NCBI GenBank assembly: GCA_021790335.1
Contig: JAJYEE010000017.1
Span: 1 to 56,595, forward strand
Length of the DNA stretch: 56,595 bases
DNA from: Pseudomonadota bacterium
GTDB lineage: Bacteria; Pseudomonadota; Gammaproteobacteria; Acidiferrobacterales; UBA6901
Reading direction: 5' to 3'
The notes below the pieces were generated by a model. That model did not search any database and had not been told where the DNA came from. It worked only from the letters and a program-made list of their open reading frames with translations. A program made the translations under genes and the position numbers. The stretch's first letter is position 1, and each line of letters begins with the position of its first letter. Below, one piece after another: positions 4,887 through 26,004 of the stretch.

Positions 4887-4900
4887 TTGATTTATGTCAA
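4887..4900 (+). promoter_or_regulatory. FNR/Dnr box upstream of nnrS
   Basis: TTGATTTATGTCAA matches TTGAT-N4-(A/G)TCAA with one deviation from symmetry. The hexamer GATAAG (4923-4928, four of six -10 matches) begins exactly 22 nt after the box. This places the predicted transcription start at about 4935, just upstream of the nnrS ATG at 4957. Confidence 0.8.
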
Positions 4901-4956
4901 GGACAGCAGCGCGGGCGATGAGGATAAGTGGATACCCGCATCAGGAACCGGAAACC

Positions 4957-6210
4957 ATGACCACGTCCCGCGAAAGTGCCGCCGCGGCGCGCCCCTCAGG
5001 TATCTGGCACGCGTTCAGTGCCGCTCCTCATCGCATGTTCTTTCTGGCGGGTGCCGTACAGATCGTCCTGATTATGGGCTGGTGGGCAGTCACGCTGTCG
5101 GGCCTCTATGGAATCCTTCCTGCCGCCGGGACACGCCTGAATCCGGTCTGGGCGCATGCGTTCCTCATGATTTACGGCCTGTTCCCGTTCTTCATCTTCG
5201 GCTTTCTTGCCACAGTCTACCCCCGCTGGATGAGTACTCCTGCGCTCTCACGCCGTACCTATGTCAGCGCATCCCTGCTCATGGCGGGCGGCGGGGCGCT
5301 GTTTTGCCTGGGACTGTATGCCGGAACCGGGATTGTTGCGCTTGCCACCACCGTATTCCTGTGCGGCTGGCTGACCATCCTCATCGCACTGCTGCGGGTC
5401 TACCACGCGGCGGGACAGCACGGTCCGCACGAACGCATACTCAATCTGGCGCTTGCCGCGGGGGCCGTGGGCATCGCATGCTTTACAGTTGCCGCGATCA
5501 GCGGGAACCCGACGTGGTTTGCCGCCGCGCGCGAGTTCGGACTGTGGATGTTTCTCGTTCCCGTGGTGTTCGGCGTCAGCCACCGTATGATCCCGTTTTT
5601 CGGCAACAGCGTGCTGGAAAACTACCGCATCGTGCGTCCCGCATGGAGCCTGCCACTGGTGCTGGTGTGCGCAACCGGTCACGCCGTGCTTGTGCTCTCG
5701 GGCGAGCGGCGCTGGCTTTTCGTGTGCGACCTGCCGCTGATGCTGACCGGCCTCTACCATTCGGTCGCCTGGGGATTTCGCCGCAGTTTCCACGATCGCC
5801 TGCTGGCCATGCTTCATATCGCGTTTTCCTGGTTCACGCTGGCGACGGCGCTGTATGGCCTTCAGAGCCTGGTCCTGCTCGGCAGCGGACGGTTGCTGTT
5901 CGGCCGCGCACCGCTGCACGCCCTGGGTATCGGCTTTGTGCTGGGCATGGTGGTGGCCATGGTCTCGCGAGTGAGCCTCGGGCACTCGGGCAGGGCGCTG
6001 GTCGCCGATCACCTCACGTGGATCACGTTACTCGGCATCAACGTAACTGCGCTGCTGCGCCTGGCTGCGGCGCTGACCGGGCCGTTTTTTGTCTACGCTT
6101 ATCTTTTCAATCTCGCCGCCGCCGGAGCGTGGCTTGTCTGTCTTACGCCCTGGGTCTGGCGCTATGCGCCGATGTATCTGCGGCCACGCATCGATGGTCG
6201 CGCCGGATGA
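4957..6210 (+). CDS. nnrS: NnrS family haem- and copper-binding membrane protein
   Basis: 417 residues and about twelve membrane segments. NnrS proteins are linked to nitric oxide tolerance and are regulated by NO-responsive FNR-family factors. The N-terminal half has the family pattern ending in YPRWMS, the middle has VSHRMIPFFG, and the C-terminal half has HALGIGFVLGMVVAMVSRV followed by SLGHSGR, which is diagnostic. An open frame begins 21 codons earlier, but the ATG at 4957 is preferred: the upstream codons lie on top of the promoter. The next gene, a hemerythrin, has its own Dnr box at 6227, so nnrS is likely transcribed alone or with readthrough. Confidence 0.9.
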   Translation: MTTSRESAAAARPSGIWHAFSAAPHRMFFLAGAVQIVLIMGWWAVTLSGLYGILPAAGTRLNPVWAHAFLMIYGLFPFFIFGFLATVYPRWMSTPALSRRTYVSASLLMAGGGALFCLGLYAGTGIVALATTVFLCGWLTILIALLRVYHAAGQHGPHERILNLALAAGAVGIACFTVAAISGNPTWFAAAREFGLWMFLVPVVFGVSHRMIPFFGNSVLENYRIVRPAWSLPLVLVCATGHAVLVLSGERRWLFVCDLPLMLTGLYHSVAWGFRRSFHDRLLAMLHIAFSWFTLATALYGLQSLVLLGSGRLLFGRAPLHALGIGFVLGMVVAMVSRVSLGHSGRALVADHLTWITLLGINVTALLRLAAALTGPFFVYAYLFNLAAAGAWLVCLTPWVWRYAPMYLRPRIDGRAG

Positions 6211-6226
6211 GTTCGGTCTTCATGCC

Positions 6227-6240
6227 TTGACATTGATCAA
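6227..6240 (+). promoter_or_regulatory. FNR/Dnr box upstream of the hemerythrin operon
   Basis: TTGACATTGATCAA fits TTGA(T/C)-N4-ATCAA. At the class II position 22 nt downstream lies CAAAGT (6263-6268), only three of six matches to a -10. The site lies between the nnrS stop codon and the ATG at 6303 and is not within a coding frame. Confidence 0.7.
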
Positions 6241-6302
6241 GGCGCACGCATGGCACTTGCGACAAAGTCAACTGCTGCAGCTCACGCGCAGAGGATGATT
6301 TC

Positions 6303-6749
6303 ATGGCGGATTCCATATATTCCGAACTCAGCACCGACCACCGGCGCTGCGATGATTTGCTCAGCGCAGCTGAAAACCAGGTTCACCGCGGCGACTGGCT
6401 TAGCGCAGGAAAAAGCCTTCAGGATTTTCTGAGTGCCACGCTTCGGCATTTCGAAGTTGAGGAGACCATTTTGTTTCCTGCGTTCGAAATGCGGACCGGA
6501 CAGGCCATGGGGCCGACACGCATCATGCGCACGGAGCACGAGCAGATGCGCGCCTTGTTCGAGGATCTGCAGCAGGACATCGGGTCACAGGATCGTGGAC
6601 ATTATCTGGGGTCATCGGAAACCCTGCTAACGCTGCTGCAGCAGCACAACCTCAAGGAAGAACAGGTTCTGTACCCGCTGGCCGACCGCGCACTCGCCAA
6701 CGAAGTTCTTGAGCTCCTGCAGCGCATGCGTGCCGACCGGCCAGCCTAG
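6303..6749 (+). CDS. Hemerythrin HHE-domain protein
   Basis: 148 residues, a single four-helix hemerythrin bundle. Di-iron ligand candidates are H13 (TDHRR), the HFEVEETILFPAFE segment, TEHEQM and QHNLKEEQVLYPL, the expected H...H-x3-E...H...H-x3-E arrangement. Such proteins bind oxygen or nitric oxide, or protect and repair iron-sulfur clusters. It is the first gene of a tight plus-strand operon (next start 6 bp after the stop) under a Dnr box, which favours an NO-related task. It has no signal peptide and is cytoplasmic. Confidence 0.9.
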   Translation: MADSIYSELSTDHRRCDDLLSAAENQVHRGDWLSAGKSLQDFLSATLRHFEVEETILFPAFEMRTGQAMGPTRIMRTEHEQMRALFEDLQQDIGSQDRGHYLGSSETLLTLLQQHNLKEEQVLYPLADRALANEVLELLQRMRADRPA

Positions 6750-6755
6750 GCGGCG

Positions 6756-8117
6756 ATGGCCGGTCAGCAACAGAAGCCGCAGACCTCCGCCAGCGTGCCG
6801 GGCGCGGCCGTTCGCATGGGCACTGCGACGCTTTCTCTCGAGCAGGCACCTCCCATCTCGGTTCCCCTGCGTTTCTTTCTGACCGCGCCGATGTTCGCGA
6901 TCGCTGCGGCGCTGGCGCTCCTGTCGCTGGGACCTGCGGTCTGGGCATCTCGCTGGTCAGCCGGAGCGCTTGCGGTAACACACCTGATGACCCTCGGCTT
7001 TCTCGCCATGGTTATGATAGGCGCCCTGATGCAGATGCTTCCGGTCGTCGCCGGCGCACCCGTTGCGCAGGCACGCAGGGTAGGCAGCAGGGTGCATGTT
7101 CTGCTCAGTCTGGGGACGCTGGCGCTTGCCGGTGGCTTCCTCTTTGCTCGGGCGCCGCTGCTGGCGCTGGCACTGGCGCTGCTCGCGCTCGCCTTCGTCG
7201 CTTTCATCGGCGCGGCTGCGGGAAGCCTGGTGCGCGCCCGCGCAGCGGCCATCACCGTGCGCGGCATTCGGCTTTCCATCGGCGCGCTCGGGGTAACAGT
7301 ATGTGTCGGTCTGCTGCTCGGGGCCGGACGCACCTGGCATCAGCCGCTGGCTGTGTCCAGACTTGCGGCTTTGCACCTGGCCTGGGGCCTGCTCGGCTGG
7401 GTCGGATTGCTGGTGGTTGGCGTTGGCTTCCAGGTTGTCCCCATGCTCCAGACCACACCTCACTATCCGCGCATCCTGACTGGCCACCTTACGCGGGCGA
7501 TCTTTGTGACGCTGCTGCTCTGGTCGTCAGCCCAGTGGCTGTCCGGTCATCTGACGCTGGCGCGAGAATCCGCTCCGGCGCTTGCGTCCTTGCTGGGTCT
7601 GGGTTATGCCGTGTTCGCAGCCACAACACTTGTGCTGCAGCAGCGGCGGCGGCGCGAGATGCCCGATATCACGGTGCGCTTCTGGCGTATCGGCATGACG
7701 AGCCTGCTCGCCTGCGCAGTGCTCGGCTGGATGGGACTATGGGGGCCGCGGGGCGTCTCGACATCGATCGAGCTCACCTGGGGTATACTCGCGATTCTCG
7801 GCTTTGGCGTGTCGGTGATCAACGGCATGCTTTACAAGATCGTACCGTTTCTTGTCTGGCTACACCTTCAGGCCAGTCCGGCCGGACGTGGCAAACTGCC
7901 CAATATGAAGCAGATCATTCCGGAACGACGCGCCGGCATTCAGTTCTGGCTGCATCTTGCCGCGCTGCTGCTGCTGGCGGGTGCGGCATGGATGCCCCGC
8001 CTGCTGGCCTATCCGGCGGCGGCGGCGCTCGGATTCTCAAACCTGCTTTTATGGTTGAACCTGGTCAGCGCCTGGCGCCTGTACAAGAGGATTCTGGCTG
8101 AGGGATTTCCCGGATGA
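6756..8117 (+). CDS. Polytopic NnrS-like membrane protein
   Basis: 453 residues with about twelve membrane segments. Three copies of a histidine-containing helix pattern resemble NnrS and the neighbouring half-size proteins: THLMTLGFLAMVMIGALMQM followed by LP, LHLAWGLLGWVGLLVVGVGF followed by QVVP, and TWGILAILGFGVSVINGMLY followed by KIVP. The histidine and the G-x-x-P turn suggest haem or metal binding as in haem-copper oxidase subunit I relatives. I do not know a published function. It is coupled to the hemerythrin upstream and overlaps the SirB-like gene by 4 bp (ATGA), so it belongs to the Dnr-controlled operon. Confidence 0.75.
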   Translation: MAGQQQKPQTSASVPGAAVRMGTATLSLEQAPPISVPLRFFLTAPMFAIAAALALLSLGPAVWASRWSAGALAVTHLMTLGFLAMVMIGALMQMLPVVAGAPVAQARRVGSRVHVLLSLGTLALAGGFLFARAPLLALALALLALAFVAFIGAAAGSLVRARAAAITVRGIRLSIGALGVTVCVGLLLGAGRTWHQPLAVSRLAALHLAWGLLGWVGLLVVGVGFQVVPMLQTTPHYPRILTGHLTRAIFVTLLLWSSAQWLSGHLTLARESAPALASLLGLGYAVFAATTLVLQQRRRREMPDITVRFWRIGMTSLLACAVLGWMGLWGPRGVSTSIELTWGILAILGFGVSVINGMLYKIVPFLVWLHLQASPAGRGKLPNMKQIIPERRAGIQFWLHLAALLLLAGAAWMPRLLAYPAAAALGFSNLLLWLNLVSAWRLYKRILAEGFPG

Positions 8118-8626
8118 ACTGGATCTTGCTAGTGCATGTTTCCTGCGTGATTCTGACTATCACAGGCTTTGTCTTGCGCGGCGTCTGGATGATGACGGGT
8201 TCACCGTTGCTCAAGGCACGGTGGGTGCGCATCGCGCCGCACGTAGTCGATACCCTGCTGCTTGCCGCCGGAGCCGAACTTGCCTTGCAGATCCACCAGT
8301 ATCCTTTCGTCAATGGCTGGCTCACCGCAAAGACTCTCGCGGTCGTCGCTTATATCGGATTGGGCACGGTTGCACTCAAGCGCGGCAGGACCCGGCGCAT
8401 ACGCGTGGCTGCGTGGCTCGGAGCGCTGCTCGTATTGGGCTATATCGTCGCCGTAGCAGTGGCGCGCAATCCGCTGCCGCTCGGTCAGGGATCCATTACG
8501 CTGGCTGCAAATATGCAGGAACAGAGCCCGGGGACGGGCTCACTCGCCGATCACAAAAAGTCCAGACCCGCTGGGCCGTCACAGGCACCGGATTCGCCTG
8601 CATCAGCTGCCGACGTGACACCATGA
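8114..8626 (+). CDS. SirB family membrane protein
   Basis: 170 residues. It matches the SirB family pattern: a short N-terminus, LLVHVSCVILTITGFVLRGV in the first helix, PHVVDTLLLAAGAELALQIH, and NGWLTAKTLAVVAYIGLG. About four membrane helices are followed by a polar tail of 45 residues. SirB was named from a Salmonella invasion regulator locus, but the family has no firm molecular function. Both ends overlap neighbours by ATGA, showing translational coupling with the NnrS-like protein and the DUF2249-hemerythrin protein. Confidence 0.85.
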   Translation: MNWILLVHVSCVILTITGFVLRGVWMMTGSPLLKARWVRIAPHVVDTLLLAAGAELALQIHQYPFVNGWLTAKTLAVVAYIGLGTVALKRGRTRRIRVAAWLGALLVLGYIVAVAVARNPLPLGQGSITLAANMQEQSPGTGSLADHKKSRPAGPSQAPDSPASAADVTP

Positions 8627-9381
8627 ACGTCAAGACGCGCTATCTCGATTTGCGCTCCGCCCCACCCGGCATGCCGGGGCATACCTACGCGTTCTATGCG
8701 CTCAGGGACCTGGAGCCGGGCACGGAGATGGTCCTGATTTCCGCCGAGGATCCGGCACTGCTGCTCAAACAGCTGCAGCTGCAGCTTCGCAATCGTCTTT
8801 GGTGGCAGTGCGTACGTGAGCAACAGATTTGGAGAGTGTCCATACGCAGGCGCGAAGAGATCGAGGCATCAACACTTCAGGATATCCTCAGCCGCGATCA
8901 TGAGCGGCTGGACGCATTGTTGTTGCGGGCGCTGATGCGATTGCGCGCCCGCGGGGCTTCCGCGGCAACGCCAGAAGTGATGGAATTCCTCGAAGGGCTG
9001 CGTCGCCACATCGCCGTGGAAAACAATCTGCTCGCGCCAGCCTTTCCGTCGCTGTACGGACCGGAAGAGGACAACCCTGTCACCACGATGCTGCGTGAAC
9101 ACGAGGACATCGCCAAACAGACGATCATGATCGAGGAACTGTTCCGTGAGGCAGATCCGGATCCGGTCGAGGCGGAAATCTGGTTCGGTCTGCTGGCGGC
9201 GGCTCTGTCCAAACACGAGTATCGCGAGGAAACCCGCCTTTTCCCGCTATGGGATACCCTGCTCAGCCGAAATGCGGATGCAGACGCCCTGATTCAGGGG
9301 GTCAGGGCTGGCCTTATCCCGCAACCGAGCGGCGTTTCTGCCACGCAGGCCCGGCAGCAGCCACAGCCGGACTCCGGATAA
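8623..9381 (+). CDS. DUF2249 domain fused to hemerythrin domain
   Basis: 252 residues. Residues 1-75 form a DUF2249 (TusA/SirA-like fold) domain, with YLDLRS near the start, EMVLISAEDPALLLKQLQ in the middle and a strand ending RVSIRRRE. Residues 85-230 form a hemerythrin bundle: SRDHERLD, RHIAVENNLLAPAF, REHEDIAKQ and KHEYREETRLFPLWD. The ATG at 8623 is chosen because it overlaps the preceding stop codon; the frame is open further upstream only as a shadow. The last gene of the operon. DUF2249-hemerythrin pairs occur in denitrifiers and near NO reductases, so an NO or iron-sulfur role is inferred. Confidence 0.85.
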   Translation: MNVKTRYLDLRSAPPGMPGHTYAFYALRDLEPGTEMVLISAEDPALLLKQLQLQLRNRLWWQCVREQQIWRVSIRRREEIEASTLQDILSRDHERLDALLLRALMRLRARGASAATPEVMEFLEGLRRHIAVENNLLAPAFPSLYGPEEDNPVTTMLREHEDIAKQTIMIEELFREADPDPVEAEIWFGLLAAALSKHEYREETRLFPLWDTLLSRNADADALIQGVRAGLIPQPSGVSATQARQQPQPDSG

Positions 9382-18484: not shown

Positions 18485-19195
18485 CTATCCTAAGAAGCGC
18501 AGCACACTGTCTTCCACCGGAGTCGAGCCGTTCACTTTCGGCCACAGCACCGGCCAGAGCCTCAGGCAGAACAGCAGCAGCGCAATCCAGGCGAGGCCAC
18601 CGCCGCTGAGCGCCAGCCAGCGCCAGCCGGAAACGAACCCCGTGACCAGCATCAACAATCCGGCGTGGGCGAGGCCGAGCTGCCACCACACGAGCGAGCC
18701 GCCACGAATGGGATTGCCGGTAAACCGCGGCAGCATGTGCTCGCCGAGCGCATACACCATGAACGTCATGAACCCGAGCGTGAACAGATGCAGGGGTGCA
18801 ACACGCGCGAAACCGGAAAGGAAAAACGAACCATTGACGGCAAGAAATCCCCCGGCAGCAAAAAGATAGGCCAGCGAGGAATGCACGGCAACGCGACCGC
18901 TGAACCCCATGCTGAGTCCGACATGGTGCGCCTGCGTGGCAGCCCTGGGCGGCGCGGCGCCGACGATGGCAAGTGCCTGCTGCCTGCTCTGCACGCCGAT
19001 CGCCACCAGCTTGCCGTCGACCACCAGCGCCGGGATGGTCTTCAGCCGCAACCGGCTGACCAGTTCCTTGCCCTCGGACTGGCCCATGTCCACGACGTCA
19101 AACTCGAACTCGCGCTCTTCCGACACTTCGCGCCAGACTTTTTCAGCCTGGTGGCAGGAGGCACACCAATCCGAAACCAGGAGCTGGACTTTCAT
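18485..19195 (-). CDS. Thioredoxin domain fused to NnrS-like membrane half
   Basis: 236 residues. Residues 1-80 form a cytoplasmic thioredoxin/glutaredoxin-like domain with the redox pair C11-A-S-C14 and a cis-proline at P55 (TIPAL). From about residue 104 four hydrophobic helices follow, with HLFTLGFMTFMVYALGEHML followed by PRFTGNP, including H136 and H153. The same pattern is found in the 19680 protein and, less clearly, in NnrS. CASCH reads like a c-type haem site, but there is no signal peptide, so a thioredoxin is preferred. GGAGAG precedes the ATG. A membrane-tethered redox protein near NO-response genes; the substrate is unknown. Confidence 0.8.
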   Translation of the reverse strand: MKVQLLVSDWCASCHQAEKVWREVSEEREFEFDVVDMGQSEGKELVSRLRLKTIPALVVDGKLVAIGVQSRQQALAIVGAAPPRAATQAHHVGLSMGFSGRVAVHSSLAYLFAAGGFLAVNGSFFLSGFARVAPLHLFTLGFMTFMVYALGEHMLPRFTGNPIRGGSLVWWQLGLAHAGLLMLVTGFVSGWRWLALSGGGLAWIALLLFCLRLWPVLWPKVNGSTPVEDSVLRFLG

Positions 19196-22065: not shown

Positions 22066-22263
22066 ATGCAACAGAATGTCGGCAGCACAGACAAAGTGAT
22101 ACGCGTGGTCATCGGGCTGGTTCTGCTGAGCCTGGTGTTTTTCGTGAAAGGCAGCAACCGCTGGCTGGGGCTGATCGGCCTGGTCCCCATTTTCACGGCA
22201 TTTGTCGGCTGGTGCCCGGCCTACTCGCTGATAGGCCTGAGCACATCCTCCAAGAAACACTGA
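22066..22263 (+). CDS. DUF2892 small inner-membrane protein
   Basis: 65 residues, two hydrophobic helices. MQQNVGSTDKVIRVVIG is the usual N-terminus of the DUF2892/YgaP-tail family, and VGWCPAYSLIGLST is the usual end with its conserved cysteine. In some proteins this module follows a rhodanese domain; here it stands alone. No function is known. It is 94 bp after moaC. Confidence 0.88.
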   Translation: MQQNVGSTDKVIRVVIGLVLLSLVFFVKGSNRWLGLIGLVPIFTAFVGWCPAYSLIGLSTSSKKH

Positions 22264-22464: not shown

Positions 22465-25400
22465 ATGACCAGCAACAACAGCGTGAGCGATTTCAGACCA
22501 GGCCTGCCGGGCCTCACGTACGATGATCTGTTTCAACAGGAAGGCCTGGAGAAGCTCGACCGCGAGTTTCTGGAGCGTCTCGCGCAGTGCGATGCGGCGC
22601 GTCACAGCCAACTGCTCGCCTATCGGGCTGGCGGGGAGTTCAGCGCACTGCAGGTGAGCGAACTGCTTCTGGCCACCGGGCCGGTGCTCGAAGAATTCCT
22701 GTCCGAACTGTTTGGCATCCAGGACGCCCTTGAGCGCTCGCGCCTGCACACTCTTGCGCATGATCCGGTGTTTGCTTTCAAAAAACTCTTCGTTCAGCGC
22801 CGTGCCCGCCGCCGCCTGCTCGCCAAGGAGGAGATCGAGCCGTTCGTCGAGCTCGACGCCGCGCTGGACCGTGCGCTGCGGCCGGCGGGACAGAACGACT
22901 CCGATCGCGAGCTCGCAATCGCAAAGTGGGGACAGCAATTACTCGCGGACCAGCAGTCAAACCAGGATGCGATTGAAATGCTCACGCGCTGGTGCATTCA
23001 GGCGATCAAGACCGCCGAAGGCCAGGCCTGCGTTCATGGCTGGGCGAGCTTCCGGCTGCCTCAAGGGATCGACCACGGCCGTCTCGTACCGGTTGTCCCG
23101 GTGGCCGCAGATCCTATGGGTCGCGTCGAAGGTCCGCAGAGCGACCGTCGCCGGCGTGACGGTTTCAGACTGACCGATCTGCGCATGCAGCCCCGCCAGA
23201 TCCAGAACGAGATTCATTATTGCATCTACTGCCACGATCATGATGGCGACTTCTGCTCCAAGGGGTTTCCGGAAAAAAAGGGCGAGCCGGAAAAGGGTCT
23301 CAAGGTCAATCCTCTGGGCGTGACGCTTACGGGCTGCCCGCTCGACCAAAAGATCTCTGAGATGCACGTAATGAAAAGGGATGGCCGCACGATCGCCGCC
23401 CTTGCCATGATCACCGTGGACAACCCCATGTGCGCCGCCACGGGCCACCGCATCTGCAACGATTGCATGAAGGCCTGCATTTACCAAAAGCAGGATCCGG
23501 TTAACATTCCGCAGGCAGAGACCGGCATTCTTACCGATGTTCTAAACCTTCCCTGGGGCGTTGAGATTTACGATCTGCTCATACGCTGGAACCCGCTGCG
23601 GCGGCGCCAGTGGCTGCCCAGGCCCTATAACGGACTGAAGGTGTTGATCGCAGGCATGGGGCCAGCAGGTTTCACCCTGGCCCACCACATGCTCATGGAA
23701 GGGTTTGCCGTCGTGGGCATCGAGGGTCTCAAGATCGAACCTTTGCCTGAGGAACTTCTGCGGCACCCCATCCGCGATTACTCCTCCCTCGAGGAACCGC
23801 TCGACACGCGGGTGATGGCAGGCTTCGGCGGTGTGGCGGAATACGGCATCACGAACCGCTGGGACAAGAATTTTCTAAGGCTTATTTATTTAAGCCTGGC
23901 GCGTCGACCGCGGTTCCAAGTCTTCGGAGGCGTGCGCTTCGGCGGGACCCTCACGGTCGAGGACGCATGGCATCTGGGATTCGACCACGTCGCCATCGCT
24001 ATCGGTGCGGGCCTGCCGCAGGCGCTGCCGGTACCCGGGAGCCTCGCGCCCGGCATGCGTCAGGCCAATGATTTTCTCATGGCGCTGCAGCTGACCGGCG
24101 CAGCCAAGGCCGCCAGCCTCGCCAATCTGCAGGTGCGCCTGCCAGCCGTCATCGTCGGCGGCGGCCTCACCGGCATAGATACGGCGACTGAGGTCGGTGC
24201 TTACTACATAGCTCAGACGGAGAAGACGCTCGAGCGCTACGAACTGCTATGCGACAGTCTCGGGGAGGAGGGGGTGCGTAGCGGGCTGGATGAAGGTGGC
24301 CGCATTATCCTTGACGAGTTGGTCGCCCACGGTCGGCTGGTGCGCGCAGAACGGGTACGGGCCGCAGCCACGGAAACGCAGCCGAATTTCGAGAAACTGC
24401 TGCGTGCCTGGGGCGGGGTGACTGTCGCGTACCGGCGCGGAATGAACGAGTCTCCGGCATACACGCGCAACCACGAAGAGATCATCAAGGCCCTGGAAGA
24501 AGGAATTTATTACGCCGAAGGGCTGGATCCGAAGGAGGCACTGACCGACCGTTATGGCCAGGTCGAGGCGCTGCGGTGCCGGCAACTCAGGCGCAACGCG
24601 GACGGAAGCTGGGAGGACACCGGCGAGGAAATCTCGGTACCCGCGCGATCTATACTCGTGGCGACCGGGGCGCGACCGAATGTCGCGTATGAATTCGAGC
24701 ATCGCGGGCATTTTGACAAGGAGCGCGGCCATTATCAGACCTTCCACGACGCCGGTGGCCGCTTGATTGCTGTGCCGGTCGCGGCGCACTGCAAGATCGA
24801 CGATTTCGGACCGTTTACCTCCTACGGCGTGGACGGCCGGCGCGTAAGCTTTCTTGGAGATACGCATCCGGTGTTTCACGGCAGCGTCGTGAAGGCAGTG
24901 GCCTCCGGGAAACGCACTTATTCGAAAATACTCACGGCTCTGGGTGAACGCGCAGGCCAACGCGGCGATGCACAGGAGTACGGGCGCTTCCGTGGGAAGC
25001 TCGATGAGCTACTGACCGCGAGGGTAGAGAGGGTTGAACGTCTTGCCAGGACGGTGGTAGAGCTAACCGTACGCGCGCCGATGGCGGCGCGACGATTCCG
25101 TCCTGGCCAGTTTTTCCGTCTGCAGAACTTCGAGACGCGCGCGCCATTCGTGGACGGAACCCGGCTGCAGTCCGAGGCGCTTGCCCTGTACGGCGCAAAG
25201 GTCGACAAGGACCGCGGACTGGTGTCTGTCGTCGTCATCGAACAGGGAGCCAGCTCACACCTCGTTGCAACACTGAAGCCCGGAGACCCGGTGACACTGA
25301 TGGGTCCGACCGGTGTGCGTGCAACAATTCCCGATGGCAACGAAACGGTCATGATCGTAGGCGGCGTGCTCGGTACCGCGTATCTGCGATCGGTGGGCAC

Positions 25401-26004
25401 AGCGCTGCGCAGCGCCGGCAACCGCGTGCTCTATGTTGCCGTCTTTCCCTCCGCGGATGCCATTATCTGCCGTGACGAAGTGGAGGATGCGGCAGATTGC
25501 ATCCTGTGGATCGCCGAACGAGGCGATCCGCCCGCCACGCGCCGCCCGCAGGATCTGGCGGCAAGCGGCGACCTGGTAGAGGTCTTGGTTCGCTACGCAA
25601 CGGGCGCGCTCGGGGCTGCGGGTGATGCGCCGCCCGTGCGGCTGGAGGATATCGACAGGCTCTTGATCATCGGATCAAGCTGCCTGGTGCGGCGCCTGCG
25701 CGATGCACGCGGCCATGAACTCAAAGGTTTTCTGGTCAAGAATCCCGAGACCACCGCCTCCATCGGCACACCGATGCAGTGCATGCTTAAGGGGGTCTGC
25801 TCCCAATGCCTTCAGTGGCAGATCGACCCGCATACCGGACGGCGCACCAAGGCGGTGTTTGCCTGTTCATGGCAGGACCAACCCGCGGACATCGTCGATC
25901 TCGACAATCTGGACGAGCGCCTGTCACAGAACCGGGTACAGGAATATCTGACCGGTTTGTGGCTAAATCATCTGCTCGCCAAGCACAAGCTGCAGCGTGT
26001 GTGA
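22465..26004 (+). CDS. Single-chain iron-sulfur flavoprotein (NfnAB/GltD-PyrK-like fusion)
   Basis: 1179 residues. The first 390 residues are helical and carry cysteines C253, C256, C264, C291, C323, C331, C334 and C338, candidate iron-sulfur ligands. A GltD/NfnB-like pyridine nucleotide-disulfide module follows: FAD site LIAGMGPAGFTLAHH (G397-x-G399-x2-G402) and a second nucleotide site VIVGGGLTGIDTATE. The last 300 residues resemble the PyrK/NfnA ferredoxin-NADP reductase type (RFRPGQFFRLQ, GPTGVRATIP) and end with C1106-x5-C1112-x2-C1115-x18-C1134. This is the layout of NADH/NADPH:ferredoxin transhydrogenases in one chain. Electron partner unknown. It follows the moa genes and DUF2892 but has its own start 200 bp away. 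Confidence 0.75.
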   Translation: MTSNNSVSDFRPGLPGLTYDDLFQQEGLEKLDREFLERLAQCDAARHSQLLAYRAGGEFSALQVSELLLATGPVLEEFLSELFGIQDALERSRLHTLAHDPVFAFKKLFVQRRARRRLLAKEEIEPFVELDAALDRALRPAGQNDSDRELAIAKWGQQLLADQQSNQDAIEMLTRWCIQAIKTAEGQACVHGWASFRLPQGIDHGRLVPVVPVAADPMGRVEGPQSDRRRRDGFRLTDLRMQPRQIQNEIHYCIYCHDHDGDFCSKGFPEKKGEPEKGLKVNPLGVTLTGCPLDQKISEMHVMKRDGRTIAALAMITVDNPMCAATGHRICNDCMKACIYQKQDPVNIPQAETGILTDVLNLPWGVEIYDLLIRWNPLRRRQWLPRPYNGLKVLIAGMGPAGFTLAHHMLMEGFAVVGIEGLKIEPLPEELLRHPIRDYSSLEEPLDTRVMAGFGGVAEYGITNRWDKNFLRLIYLSLARRPRFQVFGGVRFGGTLTVEDAWHLGFDHVAIAIGAGLPQALPVPGSLAPGMRQANDFLMALQLTGAAKAASLANLQVRLPAVIVGGGLTGIDTATEVGAYYIAQTEKTLERYELLCDSLGEEGVRSGLDEGGRIILDELVAHGRLVRAERVRAAATETQPNFEKLLRAWGGVTVAYRRGMNESPAYTRNHEEIIKALEEGIYYAEGLDPKEALTDRYGQVEALRCRQLRRNADGSWEDTGEEISVPARSILVATGARPNVAYEFEHRGHFDKERGHYQTFHDAGGRLIAVPVAAHCKIDDFGPFTSYGVDGRRVSFLGDTHPVFHGSVVKAVASGKRTYSKILTALGERAGQRGDAQEYGRFRGKLDELLTARVERVERLARTVVELTVRAPMAARRFRPGQFFRLQNFETRAPFVDGTRLQSEALALYGAKVDKDRGLVSVVVIEQGASSHLVATLKPGDPVTLMGPTGVRATIPDGNETVMIVGGVLGTAYLRSVGTALRSAGNRVLYVAVFPSADAIICRDEVEDAADCILWIAERGDPPATRRPQDLAASGDLVEVLVRYATGALGAAGDAPPVRLEDIDRLLIIGSSCLVRRLRDARGHELKGFLVKNPETTASIGTPMQCMLKGVCSQCLQWQIDPHTGRRTKAVFACSWQDQPADIVDLDNLDERLSQNRVQEYLTGLWLNHLLAKHKLQRV

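Follow-up and report, generated by a model that had tools for sequence, protein, structure and literature searches.

A single-chain Nfn homologue of the Acidiferrobacterales as a candidate NADP(H):ferredoxin oxidoreductase

The closest described relatives of the protein analyzed here are the Nfn enzymes. The ligands of the two [4Fe-4S] clusters have been assigned in T. maritima NfnB, and residues Y310-R311-R312 of NfnB form the motif that binds the phosphate of NADP (PMC7596348). In the P. furiosus enzyme, R201 contacts the flavin N5 and R333 is reported to be conserved only in bifurcating enzymes (PMC12921514); its [2Fe-2S] cluster is ligated by one Asp and three Cys, according to the title of a paper (Hagen 2000) cited in PMC6405883. 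A further P. furiosus enzyme, NfnII, has been reported to be an NADPH:ferredoxin reductase that makes no use of NAD+ (PMC8097209). Fused Nfn homologues named 'Pattern C' have been noted in Mobiluncus and in Alpha- and Gammaproteobacteria and are called uncharacterised (PMC6405883).

The window (the whole stretch of 56,595 nucleotides analyzed) contains an open reading frame of 1179 codons at 22465..26004 of the plus strand, which has no internal stops and a GC content of 0.69/0.45/0.72 at the three codon positions, a base periodicity like that of a real gene. Because a homologue is carried by 56 of the 57 genomes of the order (mostly full length and 51-97 % identical, in a count that takes in pieces at contig edges), this is not a chance reading frame; the only genome of the order without it, G053, is 77 % complete. 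Those close relatives that have names belong to Acidiferrobacterales and Sulfuricaulis. The 1179-residue chain of the original prediction was thus exact in its coordinates, and HMM searches, order-wide conservation and fold identify it as a single-chain Nfn-like iron-sulfur flavoprotein. Homologues, which when full length mostly measure about 1100-1240 residues, were found in many lineages, but the gene is sporadic across the phylum, being present in 18 of 397 genomes of an even sample, the window genome counted.

Domain architecture and fold

The protein is a single-chain Nfn homologue in which a helical domain is followed by an NfnB/GltD-like module (residues 198-830) and then by an NfnA/PyrK-like module. 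An AlphaFold2 model built with 64 homologues reached a pLDDT of 90.9 and a pTM of 0.92, and in a VIA-align comparison its residues 198-828 superimposed on P. furiosus NfnL (5jfc_L) with a Z of 28.0 and an rmsd of 2.3 over 441 of 463 residues, the FAD and NADP(H) domains of NfnB/GltD type lying at residues 386-831 (23620..24957; this and all other features of the protein are on the plus strand). The NfnA/PyrK-like domain occupies residues 846-1174 (25000..25986), of which residues 846-1170 aligned with T. maritima NfnA (4yry_C) over 260 of 265 residues with a Z of 13.2, while a TMt of 0.88 was obtained for this half against 5jca_S. Both modules were also detected by HMM and by profile against PDB sequences, and the earlier assignment of GltD/NfnB-like and PyrK/NfnA-like parts to one chain is therefore borne out by three approaches. 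The NADP domain contains a long helical insertion at about residues 577-650 (24193..24414), seen in the model as helices 568-599 and 610-635; it is absent from NfnL, in which residues 310-319 span the gap between family positions 575 and 652 in profile alignments.

Pfam returned only Pyr_redox_2 and a Fer4_20 match at 289-353, the latter below its cut-off. The NCBIfam model NF005128/PRK06567 aligned with residues 25-991, nearly the whole chain (629.4 bits, E 1e-188), a score below its curated cut-off of 1072 bits, which leaves the protein outside the family as curated; none of the 397 genomes of the phylum sample exceeded that cut-off. Our literature search found no paper naming PRK06567 or NF005128.

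The N-terminal all-helical domain spans residues 16-195 (22510..23049) and is present in the homologues aligned, and residues 10-236 folded alone gave a confident AlphaFold2 model (pLDDT 89.8). It had no Pfam match at E<=1, no match among PDB sequences and no structural match better than E 0.001 (the top Foldseek hit had an E of 1.7, and the highest Z was 4.0), in agreement with the earlier remark that the helical part is not recognised. One homologue gave a weak match to Rpb1_6 (E 0.007), which was below the cut-off and was discarded. The original prediction had described a cysteine-bearing extra N-terminus of 390 residues. A helical extra part does exist, and it measures about 200 residues (about 16-195), whereas the cysteines belong to residues about 250-385, an ordinary two-[4Fe-4S] domain common to NfnB, GltD and DPD.

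Cofactor sites and the NAD loop

The two-[4Fe-4S] domain (residues 250-385, 23212..23619) carries eight ligands, C253, C256, C264, C291, C331, C334, C338 and E352, all invariant across the 64 homologues. By analogy with T. maritima NfnB, the distal cluster would be bound by C253, C256, C264 and C338, and the proximal cluster by C291, C331, C334 and E352. At the [2Fe-2S] site (residues 1098-1140, 25756..25884), the ligands are four Cys (C1106, C1112, C1115 and C1134) in place of the Asp and three Cys of P. furiosus, and they too are invariant in the 64 homologues, indicating that this second branch is still under selection. The YRR motif at residues 656-658 (24430..24438), which the comparison with NfnB makes a putative site for the phosphate of NADP, is likewise conserved in the alignment, with Y656 and R657 in 64 of 64 homologues and R or K at 658 in 61. 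R465 aligns with P. furiosus R201 and is Arg in all 64, whereas R333 is absent: the sequence alignment would place either Y666 or N669 at its position, both of which are invariant. The identification of the protein as an iron-sulfur flavoprotein is upheld by the Nfn folds and the invariant Fe-S ligands, its cofactor content being predicted from sequence and fold.

In its NfnA half, the protein has a degenerate NAD loop. At residues 964-972 (25354..25380), IVGGVLGTA replaces GGGxGxA, so that the GGGxG of NfnA has become VGGVLGTA; the corresponding loop of NfnS reads GGGVG in a profile alignment. The loop is intact in 13 and degenerate in 51 of the 64 homologues, proportions that are biased because the set was picked by similarity to the window protein. 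In the tree, 50 of the 51, the window protein among them, form one clade with a support of 100, a result that is independent of the proportions, and all of them keep the Fe-S ligands. The remaining member, L107, is a long-branch protein of 1035 residues. L107 retains the Fe-S ligands on its very long branch and has a reduced NAD domain, and its host, G348, has a genome of 1.4 Mb in a single contig, in which the ferredoxin reductase FENR2 is encoded as well.

The original prediction pointed to the electron bifurcation that separate NfnA and NfnB carry out between NADH, NADPH and ferredoxin. For the fused enzyme, activity between NADP(H) and ferredoxin is supported; bifurcation among the three is doubtful for the window member, because the NAD loop is degenerate throughout its clade and neither R333 nor the Asp ligand of the [2Fe-2S] cluster is conserved. 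NAD-dependent bifurcation by this protein is thus unlikely. A full electron-bifurcating transhydrogenase, acting on two NADPH, NAD+ and two ferredoxins as NfnAB does, would require that the NAD site has been remodelled rather than lost; such an enzyme is suggested by the invariance of E352, the proximal-cluster Glu, and of R465, the FAD-N5 Arg, by the selection acting on the [2Fe-2S] branch, and by the GGGxG kept by the other lineage. Given the degenerate GGGxG in the window's own clade, the replacement of R333 and the four-Cys ligation of the [2Fe-2S] cluster, we nevertheless regard it as rather improbable.

We give still less credence to bifurcation from NADPH to ferredoxin and a high-potential acceptor other than NAD+, such as a quinone, a thiol or a protein. 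This would fit an invariant [2Fe-2S] site alongside a lost NAD loop and has a precedent in P. furiosus NfnII, in which the NAD site is reported to be blocked (PMC8097209), and the extra helical domain and the NADP-domain insertion of the model could dock a partner, but R333 is again absent and no conserved partner gene is adjacent across lineages.

Ferredoxin reductases and gene neighbourhood

We consider it fairly probable that the protein, a single chain derived from Nfn, is an NADP(H):ferredoxin oxidoreductase that stands in for Fpr and FENR2 in the order. Three lines of evidence point to the ferredoxin role: the NfnB structure with its two clusters and its NADP motif, the distribution of the gene, and an overlap with fdxA. 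Fpr (NF008178) was found in one of the 57 genomes of the order (G038) and FENR2 in none, while the same FENR2 query found 85 of the 397 genomes of the phylum sample. For that query we used a YumC-like protein of G348 (334 residues) that was identified by eye and whose only family match, thioredoxin-reductase-like, is below the cut-off; hits of 1e-70 or lower separate cleanly as a class. Within the phylum sample, the window genome set aside, 17 genomes have the fused gene, and Fpr was present in one of these versus 256 of the about 380 genomes that lack the fused gene (Fisher p about 4e-7, phylogeny not corrected for). FENR2 was present in six of these 17 genomes, and 11, spanning seven families, had neither reductase. 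Fpr was also found in two of 33 further fused-gene genomes, mostly gammaproteobacterial. The only mixed family used as a within-family control for the replacement of Fpr, that of Sulfuricella sp. T08, has Fpr in 0 of 22 genomes although just two of them carry the fused gene. A ferredoxin of the FdxA type is encoded by 54 of the 57 genomes of the order, the window genome included; the latter also encodes L140, an HcaD/AndAa/NorW-like reductase of ferredoxin or rubredoxin, which counts against the replacement. The claim regarding Fpr is one of replacement of function and not of family membership: the Fpr model gave only a weak partial match to the NfnA half (E 0.0034).

In four genomes (G023, G029, G043 and G051; loci L152, L153, L154 and L155, respectively), the fused gene is present a second time; this copy retains every Fe-S ligand, and its start lies within the last bases of an fdxA gene, the overlap being GTGA in three of the genomes and 13 bases in the fourth. 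The four genomes belong to one genus, and the overlap therefore counts as one event. The window's own fused gene has no ferredoxin gene adjacent to it, the fdxA-linked copies being paralogues of that one genus. The FdxA encoded at this overlap and the one encoded by the window genome are different in sequence. At two further loci, L049 and L077, fdxA is divergent and within about 1.2 kb of the fused gene.

Upstream of the fused gene in the window are genes for a Crp/Fnr regulator, a mogA-like gene and moaC, and downstream is one for an HD-GYP-type protein. Synteny of the fused gene with moeA, mogA and moaC was seen inside the order only, and no neighbour is conserved across lineages, the neighbours elsewhere being varied and mostly housekeeping genes; of the proposed link to moa genes, nothing is left beyond this order-level synteny. 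No consensus site was found in a promoter scan. Directly upstream of the fused gene, at 22066..22263 on the plus strand, is a small reading frame of about 65 residues (MQQNVGSTDKVIRVVIGL...), which we take to resemble DUF2892-type membrane proteins. At 4894..9381 and 18485..19195, the window also carries a nitric-oxide-response-like group of genes, encoding NnrS, a pair of hemerythrin-type proteins, one of which contains DUF2249, and, on the minus strand, a thioredoxin-NnrS-like fusion. Elsewhere in the genome, two MerA-like frames of 565 residues, with a heavy-metal-domain start and Pyr_redox_2, lie on separate contigs (L122 on G000:C26, L125 on G000:C38) and share identical first 60 residues; they are either a duplicate or an assembly copy.

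The original prediction had further connected the protein with Dsr, and a Dsr/Sir fragment does lie at the window's contig edge (1..647, minus strand), 22 kb from the fused gene, which speaks for a Dsr-linked oxidoreductase acting as a DsrL-like partner of DsrAB. Such a role we consider very improbable. A run of dsr genes on contig C107 (L150, 12.6 kb) comprises DsrE/F/H/C/M/K-like frames, DsrL and a DsrJ-like frame, the names being read by eye from translations and DsrL having a GltD-like family match; with DsrL encoded there, the window protein is not DsrL and is not needed in its role. The DsrL of C107 carries a C-terminal dicluster ferredoxin, the defining domain, which is missing from the window protein, so that DsrL identity is ruled out. 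Moreover, by the criteria of PMC7596348 DsrL has Ser/Thr at the first distal ligand, where the window protein has C253, and homologues are found across many lineages that Dsr does not define, an AT-rich genome of 1.3 Mb among them. The proposed Dsr link does not hold in view of the separate DsrL and this spread of homologues. The dsr genes of the genome appear to be split by contig ends, between the window edge and C107. The least probable reading, a glutamate synthase small-subunit-like enzyme, takes its cue from the NCBI name of PRK06567 and is ruled out as an identity by the genome's own GltD (L144, 706 bits to TIGR01317), the NfnA half moreover being no part of glutamate synthase.

Proposed function and relation to known systems

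As an NADP(H):ferredoxin oxidoreductase, the protein would accept hydride from NADPH on the FAD of its NfnB-like module (residues 386-831), from which electrons would pass one at a time to the proximal (three Cys and Glu) and then to the distal (four Cys) [4Fe-4S] cluster, and on to a ferredoxin of low potential, for which the FdxA type is the likeliest candidate; electrons could also flow the opposite way. The NfnA-like module would keep its four-Cys [2Fe-2S] cluster and probably its flavin, and because the clade of the window protein has a degenerate NAD loop, this second branch may feed an acceptor other than NAD+ or merely store electrons. A precedent for an Nfn that makes no use of NAD and reduces ferredoxin from NADPH is P. 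furiosus NfnII/Xfn (PMC8097209). Such an enzyme could supply electrons for Fe-S assembly and for other ferredoxin-dependent enzymes; its substrates, direction and physiological role are all predictions. Against a ferredoxin reductase stands the fact that electron transfer from NADPH to very-low-potential [4Fe-4S] clusters is uphill unless it is coupled or pulled by the product.

With one exception, the whole order is without the two common proteobacterial ferredoxin-NADP reductases, and the fused enzyme offers a concrete answer to how ferredoxin is reduced there. The two lineages with and without the NAD loop, whose Fe-S ligands are identical, also constitute a natural experiment on electron bifurcation. 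A bolder proposition, and an unlikely one, is that the proteobacterial clade took a bifurcating transhydrogenase of anaerobic type and made it the principal ferredoxin reductase of entire orders, exchanging NAD+ for another acceptor and keeping the [2Fe-2S] branch; if true, bifurcation of NADPH electrons to ferredoxin would take place in aerobic and in host-associated bacteria.

Among known proteins, Fpr (PRK10926) is an FNR-type enzyme of about 250 residues that matches NF008178 over its full length, which the window protein does not. DsrL has the GltD-like core in common with the window protein, whose C-terminus is instead NfnA-like with one four-Cys site, and PRK06567 is a family without a described function whose model aligns with nearly the full length of the chain. 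NfnAB (PDB 5jca, 5jfc and 4ylf) shares both module folds, the seven Cys and Glu, the YRR motif and the FAD-N5 Arg; the window protein differs from it in being one chain of domain order B-A, in its N-terminal helical domain and NADP-domain helical insertion, and in its four-Cys [2Fe-2S] site, absent R333 and degenerate NAD loop. P. furiosus NfnII (PDB 5vj7, titled Xfn) has the Nfn fold in common (Z 27.2) but consists of two subunits, and its NAD site is reported to be blocked by a loop and changed residues, whereas in the window protein the glycine loop is degenerate. The Pattern C proteins (PMC6405883) share with the window protein a single gene with the NfnB half first and the NfnA cofactor domains at the C-terminus, and a length beyond that of the clostridial fusion. 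The excess is put at about 200 residues in that paper, whereas the full-length homologues of the present set mostly reach about 1100-1240 residues. A fused Nfn of B-A domain order is therefore already on record as Pattern C; what is new, as far as the literature searched shows, is the loss of the NAD loop in a single clade, the absence of Fpr and FENR2 in the order, and the overlap with fdxA.
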